Part shown: one piece after another, positions 14,001 through 18,231 of the stretch
Position numbering within the stretch: position 1 is the first letter of the stretch
Layout: every line of letters begins with the position of its first letter
Notes under the pieces: generated by a model
What the model saw: only the letters and a program-made list of their open reading frames with translations
Told to the model about the DNA's origin: nothing
The model's database searches: none
Source: a virus
IMG/VR virus record: IMGVR_UViG_3300030098_000081
Location: 1-24,799 of that record
Strand: one strand, 5' to 3'
DNA: 24,799 bases
Position numbers and translations under genes: made by a program

Positions 14001-14748
14001 TATGGCAGAACAACTACAAGGTAAAATAGGTGGGCTACCTTTTTTACCACATAAAAATATAAAAATTCCTACTACAGATAAGGCTAGATATGTTAATGTA
14101 ACTAGGTATGTACCAGGTGGAGATATATTTGATTTAAATTCTGGAACAATACCTTTAGTTCCACAGCCTCTACAAATGAATTTTGGTATAGCTGGAGAAG
14201 TTCTTTTCCCTATGTTAGGTTTTGATTTATTTAGAGGTGACAAAATAAAAGGTCAAGGTATATCTGAGTTTGATGATTTTTCTATTAGATCTAAATTTGC
14301 ATTAAAAAAATTAATACCTAATTTTCCTTTTATACCAGGGTCATACTCTACAGAAAGAATAAAAAAGGCTAGAACAGATAAATCTGTGTTAGCAAGGAGT
14401 GAATCAGAACTATTAGCATTTTTAAATACTGTAGGTGTAAAGATTGAAGAGGCAGATATAAGTAGATTAAGAACTATAAAAGGTTTTGAATATAGAAGAA
14501 GATTAAAAGGTATAGAAGAACAAATAAGAGCTGTGTATGCTGACTTTAATAGGGGTGCAATTGACGAAGAAAAAAGAGATAAAAAGTTAATAACACTAAA
14601 TAAAAAATTTAAAAAATTAAGTGATACATATAGTGAGGCATTAAATATGGATATAAATTATCAAGAAGGTGCAGAGTTAAGTGAGGTAGTACCTAGAATA
14701 GTTGGTGCTGTTAAAAAGCAAACAGAAAAAATATTTGATAAAAATTAA
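11011..14748 (+). CDS. Large internal virion (ejection) protein candidate
   Basis: At 1245 residues this is the longest gene here, comparable to the large internal core proteins of T7-like phages. The N-terminus carries three copies of an acidic motif, F-x-D-L-L-P-E-[ED]-E-[RK] (residues 5-16, 26-37, 61-72). Residues about 132-215 are Gly/Ala-rich and hydrophobic (GGLIAAAYFGGAILDPATWL; ALSGGVAGGLAGALGY; AGAAGGALLSPLL), likely membrane-inserting hairpins, as expected of a protein that forms a channel after ejection. The remainder is long, Lys/Glu-rich and helical, with a Pro/aromatic region near residues 940-985. I see no lytic transglycosylase motif. It follows other core-like genes and precedes the lysozyme. 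The role is inferred from size, position and the hydrophobic segment. Confidence 0.6.
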   Translation: MVANIFKDLLPEEERDFENQPKTNNIFNDLLPEEERDVPIKNEFKLSDTPDDKYELKEKGLFDDLLPEDEKEKSLTKLYTDPDTEFGVGDAFVLGLTDTIRGVTQFAGGEKVFFMDDDLKTQQAKLNAALQGEGGGLIAAAYFGGAILDPATWLIPVLRGKTLYKMALSGGVAGGLAGALGYVDENSFYFDTRTKQAFAGAAGGALLSPLLGKTLEAAKLRKVTKLLDEQKFSDEDIAKLPDKLKRTISLPGEEDVFVGTEKALKKSRKKGKIKGVGKRDAIVREKLKLKEIETVDGRPKSLLPNKDSNENFILRGPREFFKTILGGFAKPLEPVVKGVEGVKAAYTKKMGAKYDQYFRTGPNAGEFGTGAAGALYGFALPEDQSLFGVDIPKDMQKGGMTERFSRAALGFMMGFGGVKLAKKTQVPDFIKERRAKVLGMSVEEDLSVASYLAKMFVDGYKVPKVVKEIETEDLQGLRNKIELEFFRIFQRANQLSTDERKVLYNLLEGDIKFDVVPKDLAKIAKTARKQITRITQMYIDAGLITEETALRNIERYIKRSYGGKDLSKIGSELRARGVLETITPNDWIKSYSKTKAFKLDDAGKLIRVNEHKGWELFGNVQVKKFEEPIRATDDAVKSLIKAGKGDEPLLTARWEYTKQERLGMTEIEDGAFAIMETGRLMAQTLPRYKFYADIAAQTFTKTTPTAEEILKLDLVEVPSTIRTGTIQKTYGELAGKFIPREVYENIFQINKIAEGPSKPAFKLYRNLNQIWKASKTAWNPTVHVNNIVSNLVLLDLVDGSASLLPAAVKAFNDQSKGKSVKILEEASNLGVFSSNYVKQELAGGFLDPDKVIPAYYKTDPKKNVFENATNMSDFIYKDLIKKNKFGLQKLSDYYALEDSIFRLALYMDRKNKGYNAARAAQDARKSFIDYNIQAPGINALRSLPTPFLAYTYRVIPILAETAVVRPWKFAKYAVLGYTLNNLGEILGEGDPDAERAAMAEQLQGKIGGLPFLPHKNIKIPTTDKARYVNVTRYVPGGDIFDLNSGTIPLVPQPLQMNFGIAGEVLFPMLGFDLFRGDKIKGQGISEFDDFSIRSKFALKKLIPNFPFIPGSYSTERIKKARTDKSVLARSESELLAFLNTVGVKIEEADISRLRTIKGFEYRRRLKGIEEQIRAVYADFNRGAIDEEKRDKKLITLNKKFKKLSDTYSEALNMDINYQEGAELSEVVPRIVGAVKKQTEKIFDKN
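11020..11120 (+). repeat. Tandem 63-base duplication at the start of the large gene
   Basis: Bases 11020-11057 and 11083-11120 are 38-base copies with only two differences, spaced 63 bases apart (21 codons). They encode NIFKDLLPEEER and NIFNDLLPEEER. A third, diverged copy of the protein motif (LFDDLLPEDEKE) lies at 11191-11226 but is not close at the DNA level. This indicates one recent in-frame duplication and one older one. Confidence 0.85.
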
Positions 14749-14770
14749 TTTAATATTATTAGTACTAATT

Positions 14771-15301
14771 ATGATGTTAGGGGAAACAAAAGAACAAACA
14801 GATAAGATGATGTTATATAGTGATGGGTTTTTAAACTATATAAAAAAAGCTGAGAATGAACGATTATTTTTATCTGGCACAAATGCAACTAAGCATAAAT
14901 CACCTGAAGGTGGGCTTGACACTATAGGGTATGGTCATAAATTAACCGCTGAAGAAATAGAAAGTGGTAAAGTATATGGGTATGATATAAATAATTTAAA
15001 TAAAAATCAAGCTAATACTATATTACTAAGAGATCTTGAAGAAAAAAATAAAATATTAACTAACAAACTTGGTACATCATATACTGAGTTAGACCCAAAA
15101 AGAAAACAAATGTTATTAGATATTCAGTTTAATGTAAAAGGTGGCATAGATTCTTTTCCAAAATTTACAGAGGCTGTTTTAGATAATGATGTAGATACTA
15201 TGCAACAAGAATATAAAAGATATTTTAAAAATAAACAAGGTGAATATCAAGAACTAGCTAGAAATAAACAATTTTCTAGTTTTTTCTTTGAAGATAATTA
15301 A
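14771..15301 (+). CDS. Endolysin, GH24 (T4-type) lysozyme
   Basis: This lysozyme cleaves the glycan chains of peptidoglycan to free progeny or aid entry. Numbered from ATG 14771 it has 176 residues. LNYIKKAENERLFL holds the likely catalytic Glu (E28), and GGLDTIGYGHKLT (48-60) holds the conserved T-I-G-Y-G-H. The spacing between Glu and TIGYGH is longer than in T4 lysozyme and no clear counterpart of T4 Asp20 is seen except D50. The C-terminal half has QMLLDIQFNVKGG and FPKFTEAVLDND, as in the family. The start is uncertain: the same frame opens at TTG 14702, inside the previous gene, and would add a Lys-rich plus hydrophobic stretch (INLILLVLIMML) like a signal-anchor. No start has a good ribosome site. 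It overlaps the next gene by one base. Confidence 0.85.
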   Translation: MMLGETKEQTDKMMLYSDGFLNYIKKAENERLFLSGTNATKHKSPEGGLDTIGYGHKLTAEEIESGKVYGYDINNLNKNQANTILLRDLEEKNKILTNKLGTSYTELDPKRKQMLLDIQFNVKGGIDSFPKFTEAVLDNDVDTMQQEYKRYFKNKQGEYQELARNKQFSSFFFEDN

Positions 15302-15516
15302 TGGCTAAACAACCCAAAACAACTAGTGAACACATTATATCCTTATACGGATATATTACAGGGTTGAAGAGAGAGGTCAGCAGTATAAAAAATAATCATC
15401 TAAAACATATGCATGAAGATATAGATAAATTACACGGCAAGATAGACAGAGTATTGTATGTTATACTTGGAGGTTTAGGTGCAACAATACTAACATTAAT
15501 AAGTTTATTTAATTAA
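15301..15516 (+). CDS. Small coiled-coil protein with C-terminal membrane segment
   Basis: This 71-residue protein has a charged helix with heptad-like spacing (residues about 20-50: LKREVSSIKNNHLKHMHEDI) followed by one hydrophobic segment (51-70, VLYVILGGLGATILTLISLF). The topology matches XhlA-type phage lysis accessory proteins, which sit in the inner membrane with holin. Similarity is in layout, not in a diagnostic motif. Coupled to the lysozyme stop by a one-base overlap, it is a good candidate for a holin-associated or holin protein. Confidence 0.55.
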   Translation: MAKQPKTTSEHIISLYGYITGLKREVSSIKNNHLKHMHEDIDKLHGKIDRVLYVILGGLGATILTLISLFN

Positions 15517-15525
15517 GGAGTAAAA

Positions 15526-15630
15526 ATGATAGAAGAATTAAAAATAAAAGTAAAAGAGATATGGGAAAAACACTATCACTGCGTCATTTGTGCAGTTGCA
15601 GGTTTTGTCTTAGGCGCTATAATATTATAA
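15526..15630 (+). CDS. 34-residue membrane protein
   Basis: This short frame (ATG 15526, stop 15628-15630) has a strong AAGGAG six bases ahead. It encodes a charged N-terminal helix (MIEELKIKVKEIWEKHYH) and one membrane segment to the end (CVICAVAGFVLGAIIL). I recall similar tiny membrane proteins after the lysozyme in SAR11 phages. A pinholin- or holin-like lysis role is possible, by position and topology only. Confidence 0.5.
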   Translation: MIEELKIKVKEIWEKHYHCVICAVAGFVLGAIIL

Positions 15631-15641
15631 TATATATTTAA

Positions 15642-15857
15642 ATGTCTAAACCTGAATATCAGGATATTATCCAAGAGTACAAAGAGCAAGTCAGAATACT
15701 AAAGCAAGAGGTTGCTGAATTGCAAGACGCTGGTAAAAGTAAAGATAGTGCAAACAAACGTACTCTGCAAAAGCTAGAGCATGTAACACAGGATCTAGAA
15801 AATGCAAATAAAAAAATAAAAGAACTAGAATCAAATCAACCAAATACAAAGGAGTAA
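15642..15857 (+). CDS. Small coiled-coil protein
   Basis: This 71-residue protein is nearly all charged helix: YKEQVRILKQEVAELQDAGK then KRTLQKLEHVTQDLENANKK, with hydrophobics at heptad spacing. It has no membrane segment or signal peptide. There is no clear ribosome site before ATG 15642 (the upstream bases are all A/T), so translation may depend on the gene before it. It lies between two membrane proteins in the presumed lysis region. The function is unknown; it could be the soluble partner of a lysis complex or a minor virion coiled coil. Confidence 0.5.
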   Translation: MSKPEYQDIIQEYKEQVRILKQEVAELQDAGKSKDSANKRTLQKLEHVTQDLENANKKIKELESNQPNTKE

Positions 15858-15859
15858 CA

Positions 15860-16291
15860 ATGCCATTTGAAATGATTACAATGCTAGGATCCACTGTACT
15901 TGGTGGGGTAATGAGTATATGGTCACAAAGCATTAAAGCAAAACAAGCAGAACAAAAAATGCTTTTGCAAAGAGCTGAAGTTCAACAAAAAGGTTTTAAA
16001 GACGCTAGAGAATATGAGAATGTAGGTTTTCAGTGGACTAGAAGAATTATAGCTTTAGTCGCTGTCTTTGCAATAGTATTACTACCAAAATTAATGCCTG
16101 TATTATCCCCAGATACAAGTGTAATTGTAGGTTATTTAGAATTTAAACCTGCATTTTTCTTTTTACCAGAAAAAGAAGTAATGAAATGGATAACATTATC
16201 ATCTAATAGTTTAGTTATAACACCACTGGATACCAATTTAGTATCAGCAATTATTGGGTTATACTTTGGAGGATCTTTAGTTAAAAAATAA
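15860..16291 (+). CDS. Conserved membrane protein, holin candidate
   Basis: This 143-residue protein has a weakly hydrophobic N-terminus (MITMLGSTVLGGVMSIW), a charged helix (SIKAKQAEQKMLLQRAEVQQ), a strong membrane segment (about 62-76, RIIALVAVFAIVLLP), and a second near the C-terminus (about 118-140, VITPLDTNLVSAIIGLYFGG). The pattern M-L-G-S-T-x-L-G-G plus W-T-R-R and T-P-L-D-T is one I recall as conserved in marine phages, usually left as hypothetical. Location after the lysozyme makes holin the best guess. AAGGAG lies upstream of the ATG. A virion membrane-channel role is the alternative. Confidence 0.55.
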   Translation: MPFEMITMLGSTVLGGVMSIWSQSIKAKQAEQKMLLQRAEVQQKGFKDAREYENVGFQWTRRIIALVAVFAIVLLPKLMPVLSPDTSVIVGYLEFKPAFFFLPEKEVMKWITLSSNSLVITPLDTNLVSAIIGLYFGGSLVKK

Positions 16292-16307
16292 TATATGAGG
16301 ACTAACT

Positions 16308-16385
16308 ATGAACTATTACTTTACAGGAGTATTAATAATACTTTTAGTATTAATTGCTTTGTTTTTAGAACCAGGCTATAGATGA
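16308..16385 (+). CDS. 25-residue membrane peptide
   Basis: The frame from ATG 16308 to TGA 16383-16385 encodes 25 residues: a short aromatic start (MNYYFTG), one hydrophobic segment (VLIILLVLIALFL) and a short polar tail (EPGYR). A GAGG site lies about 9 bases upstream. It overlaps the next gene by four bases (ATGA), a common coupling pattern. The overlap and ribosome site support it being real; the function is unknown. Confidence 0.4.
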   Translation: MNYYFTGVLIILLVLIALFLEPGYR

Positions 16386-16606
16386 AATTTGGATTAGCTT
16401 TTATATTATGCTCTTATGTAGCAAATACTTGCTTACCTCCACATCATTATGATTTTCAATTTGATAACGAATATGATTGTATGATTACAGGTTATTCAGA
16501 ATCTCTTAAAAAAATAAAAGAGATTGGCCCTGCAGATGTAAATCAACATCGTATGTATATAAAATTTGGTTGTTTTGAAGTAATAGGAACAGAAAAAAAT
16601 ACTTAA
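16382..16606 (+). CDS. Small Cys-containing protein with signal-like N-terminus
   Basis: This 74-residue protein has a hydrophobic N-terminus (MKFGLAFILCSYVANT) followed by CLPPHHYDFQFDNEYDC and a C-terminal part ending in KFGCFEVIG. It has four Cys; with the signal-like start this suggests an exported protein with disulphides in the periplasm, though a lipobox is not well formed. It is coupled to the previous peptide by ATGA. No known family. Position among membrane peptides suggests a lysis or envelope role. Confidence 0.5.
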   Translation: MKFGLAFILCSYVANTCLPPHHYDFQFDNEYDCMITGYSESLKKIKEIGPADVNQHRMYIKFGCFEVIGTEKNT

Positions 16607-16608
16607 AT

Positions 16609-16686
16609 ATGAAATATTCTTTAATACTATTGTCATTATTATTAATACTTTCTGGCTGTATATCAGCAGCAATAGTAGGGAGTTAA
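16609..16686 (+). CDS. 25-residue predicted lipoprotein
   Basis: The frame from ATG 16609 to TAA 16684-16686 reads MKYSLILLSLLLILSGC, then eight residues to the stop. It has a basic start, a hydrophobic core and a perfect lipobox (L-S-G-C), so the mature form would be a nine-residue lipid-anchored peptide starting CISAAIVGS. This resembles lysis lipoproteins of the colicin-release type and the outer-membrane half of two-part spanins, but it is shorter than typical spanins. It starts two bases after the previous stop. The ribosome site is poor. Confidence 0.5.
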   Translation: MKYSLILLSLLLILSGCISAAIVGS

Positions 16687-16694
16687 TTTAAGTG

Positions 16695-16829
16695 ATGGCA
16701 AAACCAACTAGATTTTTCAAATGGTTAGTAAAATTAAGAATGTGGTGGGCAGACATTAGGGGTCATCATGGTAAGAAATGGAATTATGAACCTGGTGATT
16801 ATTACATGGGGAGAAAGAAAAGAAAATGA
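16695..16829 (+). CDS. 44-residue basic Trp-rich protein
   Basis: The frame from ATG 16695 to TGA 16827-16829 encodes MAKPTRFFKWLVKLRMWW, ADIRGHHGKKWNYEPGDYYM and GRKKRK. It is basic and has four Trp; the segment W-W-A-D-I-R-G-H-H-G-K-K-W-N-Y-E-P-G-D-Y-Y is one I recall from SAR11 phage genomes. It overlaps the next gene by four bases (ATGA). The function is unknown; the amphipathic basic/aromatic N-terminus could lie on a membrane. Confidence 0.5.
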   Translation: MAKPTRFFKWLVKLRMWWADIRGHHGKKWNYEPGDYYMGRKKRK

Positions 16830-17248
16830 GTAAGAAACCATTAAATATATCAGAAGAAGCAGCTGTCCAAATGCCAATGAAAACAGTAGCTTCGTTGATT
16901 ATAATCGTAGCACTCGGCACTATGGGCTATTTTCAGATGGTAGAACGTTTAAATATTGCTGACACCAAGATCAAGATAATGGAACAAGATGTTGAGCAAA
17001 ATACAGAGTTTAGAATAAAATGGCCACGGGGTCAAATGGGTTCATTGCCCGCAGATTCTGAGCAGTACATGATGTTGGAGGATTTGTACAAAACTACCGA
17101 TCGTTTAAATAAACACATAGAGTCTATGGCGTTAAATAAAGTTAATATAGAATTTATACAGAAACAAATGGAAAAAGTTTTAATAGATATTGAAAAGTTA
17201 AAAGATGCTAATAGAGAAATGAAATATACAAATGGTAACACCCAATGA
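16826..17248 (+). CDS. Membrane-anchored coiled-coil protein, inner spanin-like
   Basis: This 140-residue protein has a polar N-terminus, one membrane segment (about 20-36, TVASLIIIVALGTMGYF), then a long helical domain (IADTKIKIMEQDVEQNTEF; YKTTDRLNKHIESM; FIQKQMEKVLIDIEKLK). This is the topology of an inner-membrane spanin subunit (N-in anchor, periplasmic coiled coil). A tiny lipoprotein gene lies just upstream, which would fit a spanin pair, but classical outer spanins are longer and follow or sit inside the inner spanin gene. The central RIKWPRGQMGSLPADSEQYM is a conserved-looking non-helical segment that might suggest a virion protein instead. Confidence 0.5.
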   Translation: MSKKPLNISEEAAVQMPMKTVASLIIIVALGTMGYFQMVERLNIADTKIKIMEQDVEQNTEFRIKWPRGQMGSLPADSEQYMMLEDLYKTTDRLNKHIESMALNKVNIEFIQKQMEKVLIDIEKLKDANREMKYTNGNTQ

Positions 17249-17457
17249 TAGAAGCTGTAATAGGATTACTTATGTTTGTAAACGGAGAAATTAAGGAGGC
17301 TCGTTTGCAGCCTTCGATGGCTTTATGTTTACGCGGCAAACGTGAAGCTGAGAGACAATACTCAGAAACTGTATCCTACAAATGCTGGAAAGGTAATGCA
17401 GAATTAGAAGATAATATTGATGGCTCAAAATCAATCAAGAAACTCATCATCGAATAA
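17245..17457 (+). CDS. Conserved small protein of marine phages
   Basis: This 70-residue protein starts with a hydrophobic stretch (MIEAVIGLLMFVNGEI), then AREARL-like EARLQPSMALCLRGKREAER and SYKCWKGNAELED. Two Cys flank a basic helix. I recall this pattern (INGEI...QPTMxxCLxxKRxAER...YxCxxxxAELE) from SAR11 phages with no assigned function. The hydrophobic start may be a signal peptide or an anchor. It overlaps the previous gene by four bases and the next small gene by 38. Confidence 0.55.
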   Translation: MIEAVIGLLMFVNGEIKEARLQPSMALCLRGKREAERQYSETVSYKCWKGNAELEDNIDGSKSIKKLIIE

Positions 17458-17560
17458 AGTTGCAAAATTTTTAAGAGATAGACGATATCGTCAGATTGTG
17501 ATAAAAAATAAGAAAGTTTATGACAGGAAAAAATTTAATATAAAAAAAATTAAGGATTAA
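17420..17560 (+). CDS. 46-residue basic protein
   Basis: The frame from ATG 17420 to TAA 17558-17560 overlaps the end of the previous gene. It encodes MAQNQSRNSSSNKVAKFLRD, a basic helix (RRYRQIVIKNKKVYDRKK) and a Lys-rich tail. The overlap of 38 bases in a different frame weakens the call, but otherwise 17458-17562 would be a rare gap in a fully packed strand. The ribosome site is weak. Function unknown. Confidence 0.4.
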   Translation: MAQNQSRNSSSNKVAKFLRDRRYRQIVIKNKKVYDRKKFNIKKIKD

Positions 17561-17562
17561 AT

Positions 17563-18231
17563 ATGTATTTAAATGCTAATATTCCAGTTATAGAGTGCTA
17601 TGTACGAGGTAATTATTTAAGAGATCAAAAAGATTCTCATGATAAATACTTTGAATGCGTGGTATTTGGATTTACATCTATACCAAAACAAGTTCCCCTA
17701 TTCCACTACATGATGACAGATGGGGGTATCTGGTGGAGAGCACCTATATCAGCATTTTGTAAAAAACCTGGTGTAAAAGAATTACCATTAAATGAATTAA
17801 TGTTGTGGGATTCATTTAGTTACAATGTAAGTGTCACTAGATTTTACCAATTACAAGGATGTAAAATGATGTATACTTCTCGTAGAAGAAAACAAAGAGA
17901 AGGTGCATATTTATTTACAATTGATTGGTGTGCTGGAGATTATAATGAATTAGATTTTGGTTATGCAGAAAAACCAGACCAACACAAATGTGGACATGTA
18001 ATAGAATTAGATGATGGTAACTATGCAATTCAACCTAATAATAGACTAAGGATATTTGATCCGTCTATGGCAGCTGATCCAAGTAAACCTCTTATACATA
18101 GACTAGTTAATACTAAAATATGGTCTGTAGAAGATACCTCAAAATGGATAACTGATGAAAATGAAGAAGGCAGTTATGACTATGAATACAAGGAGATAAA
18201 AGATGGCGAAGAAAAAAAGCACAGTAAATAA
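17563..18231 (+). CDS. Conserved marine phage protein of unknown function
   Basis: This 222-residue soluble protein is rich in aromatic residues, with PLFHYMMTDGGIWWRAPISA, CKKPGVKELPLNELMLWDSF, FTIDWCAGDYNELDFGYAE, and HKCGHVIELDDGNYAIQPNN followed by R-L-R-I-F-D-P-S. The last part resembles conserved phage sequences in which W-W-R-A-P and Q-P-N-N-R-I-x-W-x-D-P-S recur; I know them only as hypothetical. There is no catalytic motif and no membrane segment. The C-terminal 10 residues overlap the next gene by 29 bases. AAGGA precedes the ATG. It marks the step from small lysis-type proteins to the basic cluster. Confidence 0.6.
   Translation: MYLNANIPVIECYVRGNYLRDQKDSHDKYFECVVFGFTSIPKQVPLFHYMMTDGGIWWRAPISAFCKKPGVKELPLNELMLWDSFSYNVSVTRFYQLQGCKMMYTSRRRKQREGAYLFTIDWCAGDYNELDFGYAEKPDQHKCGHVIELDDGNYAIQPNNRLRIFDPSMAADPSKPLIHRLVNTKIWSVEDTSKWITDENEEGSYDYEYKEIKDGEEKKHSK

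Follow-up and report, generated by a model that had tools for sequence, protein, structure and literature searches.

The 25-codon open reading frame (ORF) at positions 16609 to 16686 of the window, by which we mean the whole stretch of DNA analyzed, a virus record of 24,799 bases, is very probably (roughly 85%) the 5' stub of a gene for an exported phage lipoprotein of about 229 amino acids, left after a net in-frame loss of 201 codons. Among 35 named phage records that resemble positions 14700-18231 in their DNA, 31 are Pelagibacter phages, and none covers more than 20% of the query. The features referred to below are:

14744 to 15301, plus strand: phage lysozyme (PF00959), 28.7 bits against a cut-off of 22.3.
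15860 to 16291, plus strand: 143-aa protein matching phrog_38283, a family without functional name; the query for relatives.
16308 to 16385, plus strand: tm25, a conserved 25-aa micro-ORF with a single transmembrane segment, of a sequence type that many full-length family members have as their N-terminal segment.
16382 to 16606, plus strand: p74, the gene directly ahead of the slot discussed here, matching phrog_19893, a family without functional name.
16609 to 16686, plus strand: the 25-codon ORF with its stop, from the translation; homologous to residues 1-25 of full-length relatives.
16648 to 16659, plus strand: lipobox L-S-G-C, from the sequence, with the Cys codon at 16657-16659; LPAM_1 match below cut-off.
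16675 to 16694, plus strand: what remains of the full-length gene at its 3' end, comprising the junction and the old C-terminal codons; 13 of 20 bases, same phase.
16695 to 16829, plus strand: p45, a 44-aa ORF from its ATG; the ORF listing has a GTG start at 16692.
16826 to 17248, plus strand: 140-aa protein, initially called spanin-like, matching phrog_20984, a family without functional name.

The ORF translates to MKYSLILLSLLLILSGCISAAIVGS followed by a stop, with the lipobox cysteine at residue 17 and eight residues after it, in agreement with the lipoprotein signal and short tail described in the initial annotation. Its ATG lies 2 nt past the p74 stop and its TAA 8 nt ahead of the p45 ATG; no obvious Shine-Dalgarno sequence was seen by eye ahead of it. 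A strict scan of the window, run on both strands, asked for an ATG start, K/R but no D/E close to the N-terminus, a hydrophobic core free of charges and a lipobox. This ORF was the sole match, and 200 dinucleotide-preserving shuffles scanned in the same way yielded a mean of 0.03 ORFs, with any at all in 6 of the 200. Judged by its homology to the start of the 229-aa lipoprotein of relatives, the frame did not arise by chance.

A colicin lysis family exists in Pfam; Pfam-A searched with the 25-mer, a weak test for a query of 25 residues, returned only the attachment-site model LPAM_1 over residues 1-17 (E 0.0032, 18.3 bits, cut-off 20). The best NCBIfam model was NF038104, aligned to the signal region (E 0.0017, 18 bits, cut-off 50), and the LptM model scored 14.5 against 27.7, so that no match reached a curated cut-off in Pfam or NCBIfam. 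In PHROG the top match was a spanin family at E 0.11, and all spanin matches were at E 0.11 or worse. Colicin-lysis and spanin readings of the 25-mer were rejected on these results.

Relatives were fetched with the 143-aa protein, giving 80 viral loci (best 80 of 574). Among these, p74 lies within 200 nt past the 143-aa gene in 17 rows, namely the window, its own copy (L001), two loci with the 25-aa ORF (L002, L003) and 13 others. In all 13 of the others, the slot after p74 is filled by a lipoprotein of 226-230 aa in the homologous frame, starting 2 or -4 nt past p74 (2 in the window); one of them, in L041, ends at residue 171 with its contig. The lipoproteins of these loci open with a signal and lipobox of the kind seen in the window ORF (in L006, MKHPLTLLILLLILSGCMSAAVMAGSTQTNTSGSNTAIEGGY), after which the aligned long lipoproteins have a linker rich in Ser/Thr/Asn and then a domain in which four cysteines are conserved. 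The long lipoprotein is a member of phrog_20531 (E 5.8e-8; 28 of 28 core sequences match), a family without functional name. The window agrees with the lipoprotein form of this family in slot, kind of signal, lipobox, p74 spacing of the nearest kin and 3' end, and differs from it by lacking linker, four-cysteine domain and C-terminal helix, together 201 codons. A regular-expression scan of the relatives for short lipoproteins (up to 70 aa) found only the window population, because the long versions exceed the 70-aa limit.

That the ORF encodes a dedicated micro-lipoprotein which perturbs the envelope as colicin lysis proteins do, a reading that extends the conceptual likeness seen in the initial annotation, is very improbable: a good lipobox, a short mature part and a position about 1.3 kb downstream of the lysozyme gene would suit such a role, but the homologous frame is the 226-230 aa gene in 13 of 13 non-window loci of this order, one of them cut by its contig end, Pfam gave LPAM_1 alone and below cut-off, and the PHROG spanin matches were weak. 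Colicin lysis (bacteriocin release) proteins are small lipoproteins whose gene comes last in group A colicin operons, as described in an excerpt of PMC9517006. The stub product would likewise be a small lipoprotein; in contrast, it sits in a phage cluster with a lysozyme gene and PHROG families, matches no family profile and derives from a longer gene. With two-component outer spanins of the lambda Rz1 type it shares the LSGC lipobox and a nearby gene for an N-terminally hydrophobic protein, whereas it has no significant family match and its mature part comprises nine residues from the cysteine on, against 40 in Rz1 (as given in an excerpt of PMC6139136); the earlier remark that it is too short for an outer spanin stands. 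As for the neighboring 'spanin-like gene', inspection by eye shows a hydrophobic stretch at its N-terminus and a coiled-coil look, but its PHROG family has no functional name. Relatives of this 140-aa gene also occur without a lipoprotein gene ahead (in L027, for example, straight behind the 143-aa gene and, by reading, straight behind p74 in L088 and L089), so the 140-aa protein is not an obligate lipoprotein partner.

For the extent of the loss, the window was compared with L006. The blastn alignment breaks at 16674/5815 (window/L006) and picks up at 16679/6423, and the distance from lipoprotein start to p45 start is 603 nt shorter in the window, with unchanged phase; together with the long frame of the relatives, this loss gives no support to an action like that of colicin lysis peptides. 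The first 25 codons of the long gene are still present. Of the 20 bases ahead of the p45 ATG, 13 are identical to those that close the L006 gene, and none of the 971 other ATGs in the window (both strands) is preceded by as good a match. An in-frame TAA at 16684-16686 stops the stub before the old-phase TGA at 16693-16695, which lies at the p45 overlap, and the missing segment starts near the boundary between signal and domain, just past 'GS'. Searched with the full-length protein, the window and two near-identical records gave one match each, to residues 1-25 at the stub site (64% and E 1.2e-4 in the window), and the four-cysteine domain was not found in these three records, all of which are fragments, so that a relocated copy may lie elsewhere in the genome. 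The phrog_20531 profile did not match the window and was equally silent on 14 control genomes. In the mechanism we propose, a deletion that took a net 201 codons in frame would have removed the linker and the four-cysteine domain in this phage population and left the signal peptide, the lipobox, a few codons and the last codons of the gene, with the in-frame TAA ending the frame at codon 26.

The exact junction is also present in two other contigs. One of them is 99.990% identical to the window along 10,426 nt, the other 99.843% along 13,338 alignment columns. The 25-codon ORF and p74 are identical in all three, and the 19 differences listed between L003 and the window include none between 14,415 and 17,904. 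The three stub contigs are one near-identical population. An assembly artefact is unlikely, as the junction is common to three contigs, possibly from related samples.

In a p74 DNA tree of 63 rows, whose bootstrap is not fully settled, the window falls into a starred clade of seven rows (99/97) in which five full-length carriers group with the window and its own copy L001. The 31 rows labeled 'none' in this tree include p74 relatives sited elsewhere in their genomes, and L214 is so labeled although its full-length gene is present; the window clade is unaffected by these label issues. As the window is nested in a clade of full-length carriers, the most economical history is a loss in the window lineage. 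The reverse history, in which the short form came first and the domain of about 200 codons was inserted behind the signal in the relatives, draws on the fact that in other phages the domain sits behind several kinds of signal and so has been rejoined near this boundary; given the nesting on the p74 tree and the persistence in the window of the full-length gene's 3' end, we regard it as highly unlikely.

Constraint on the signal was compared over codons 1-21. Against 18 distinct long-form signals the window gave a mean pN of 0.220 and pS of 0.422, and the 153 long-form pairs gave 0.156 and 0.421 (ratio of means about 0.37), the pairs not being independent and the signal having only about 15 synonymous sites. 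A pN above that of the window was seen for one of the 18 long-form rows (L244). Against single long-form rows, pN/pS of the window ranged from 0.32 to 1.26, with 0.32-0.34 for its nearest kin. The comparison of synonymous with nonsynonymous change, recommended at the outset, thereby yields a weak hint that the window signal may be under relaxed constraint; since the nearest-kin values are no higher than the long-form ratio, drift is not proven. Start, hydrophobic core and lipobox of the ORF are intact, which counts against the stub reading, as an old pseudogene need not retain them; the deletion may be recent.

If the stub is translated, signal peptidase II would, by the established pathway, release and lipidate Cys-Ile-Ser-Ala-Ala-Ile-Val-Gly-Ser, and we infer that this lipid-modified nonapeptide would be a by-product without dedicated function. 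At most, translation of the stub might help ribosomes to reach p45, as the stop/start overlap of the long gene probably did. In 39 of the 75 p45 loci examined a phrog_20531-family gene lies ahead of p45, and in 37 of these 39 the stop/start distance is 0 (overlap). The other 36 comprise L179 and L180 (window population), seven loci with a p74-like gene ahead, seven with an MDYRFTA-type ORF, two contig ends and 18 with other genes. A stronger version, in which the ORF would be a leader cistron whose peptide is irrelevant and whose translation couples p74 to p45, fits the spacing of 2 and 8 nt on its two sides and the overlap of the full-length genes with the p45 start; we consider it improbable, because p45 follows straight after the p74-like gene in L182, L197, L202, L203, L206, L207 and L211, so that such a leader is dispensable there. 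In L181, L184, L187, L192, L200, L201 and L213, the long family gene ahead of p45 is replaced by an ORF of 45-51 aa with the membrane segment MDYRFTAILIILLCLL and a short Pro/Lys-rich tail, i.e. a signal-like segment without the domain.

Beyond the slot, at least 600 viral stretches matching phrog_20531-family patterns were listed, of which 583 encode relatives; in the bacterial collection, relatives are encoded by 3 of 30 stretches, all on MAG contigs. Classed by rules, the 102 distinct family N-termini among the matches listed comprise 19 with a lipobox, 65 with an NYYFTG-type (tm25-type) membrane segment, 14 others, mostly of A-x-A type, and 4 unreadable ones. The domain is therefore joined to export signals of several kinds, and lipidation is not shared by the whole family. 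In an alignment of the N-termini at L096 4962 and L006 5750, the non-lipobox and the lipobox signal are alike save for a five-residue gap over the lipobox; this suggests that a small indel may be enough to add or remove lipidation in the family.

The lost domain had no Pfam match above cut-off and no match among PDB sequences better than E 0.018. Structure prediction was poor for the full protein (mean pLDDT 45.6, pTM 0.22) and moderate for the C-terminal 148 residues (mean pLDDT 75.9, pTM 0.50). A Foldseek search against the PDB gave no match at E<=0.001, and BFVD gave eight at this level, none with a functional name. The long protein would be periplasmic and disulfide-bonded. Among the titles retrieved on pelagiphage spanins or lipoproteins, none concerned the stub or the long lipoprotein gene.

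The micro-ORF tm25 reads MNYYFTGVLIILLVLIALFLEPGYR in the window. Among 109 contexts it stands alone with up to 30 aa in 49, and in 54 the same start continues for more than 200 aa. The stand-alone forms have 22-26 aa; 15 distinct 25-codon sequences, chosen by position and then kept if of the MNYYF form, gave pN 0.092 and pS 0.413, and a motif-selected set of 19 sequences gave pN 0.088 and pS 0.486. As a candidate for a real micropeptide, tm25 is good, and better than the 25-codon ORF flagged initially. In L088, L090, L096, L120 and L197, an amphipathic-looking ORF of 21-26 aa, MIKKIKEKIKNLWDKFVAWLFSWQK, replaces tm25 just ahead of the p74-like gene, and L182, L202, L203, L207 and L211 also have an ORF of this type and length in its place. 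In L005/L205, tm25 lacks 19 nt near its start ahead of p74, and the frame is open from an upstream ATG (MRANYVLIILLVLIALFLEPGYR). A wider reading, which we hold to be improbable, would make the slot a cassette that moves an exported domain of about 200 codons in and out behind interchangeable signals, with leftover signal-only ORFs (tm25, perhaps the lipopeptide) kept as functional membrane micropeptides.

The stub is a real frame, most likely of ordinary origin rather than a lysis peptide of a new kind. It carries a caution for the hunt for micro-ORFs, as the in-frame loss of a domain from an exported protein leaves exactly an intact signal peptide with its lipobox; for a short lipoprotein ORF, the same slot should be compared in relatives before a function is proposed. 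The stub points to a large, uncharacterized family of exported proteins in marine phages; the neighboring tm25 and the changing export signals of the domain merit more attention than the stub itself.
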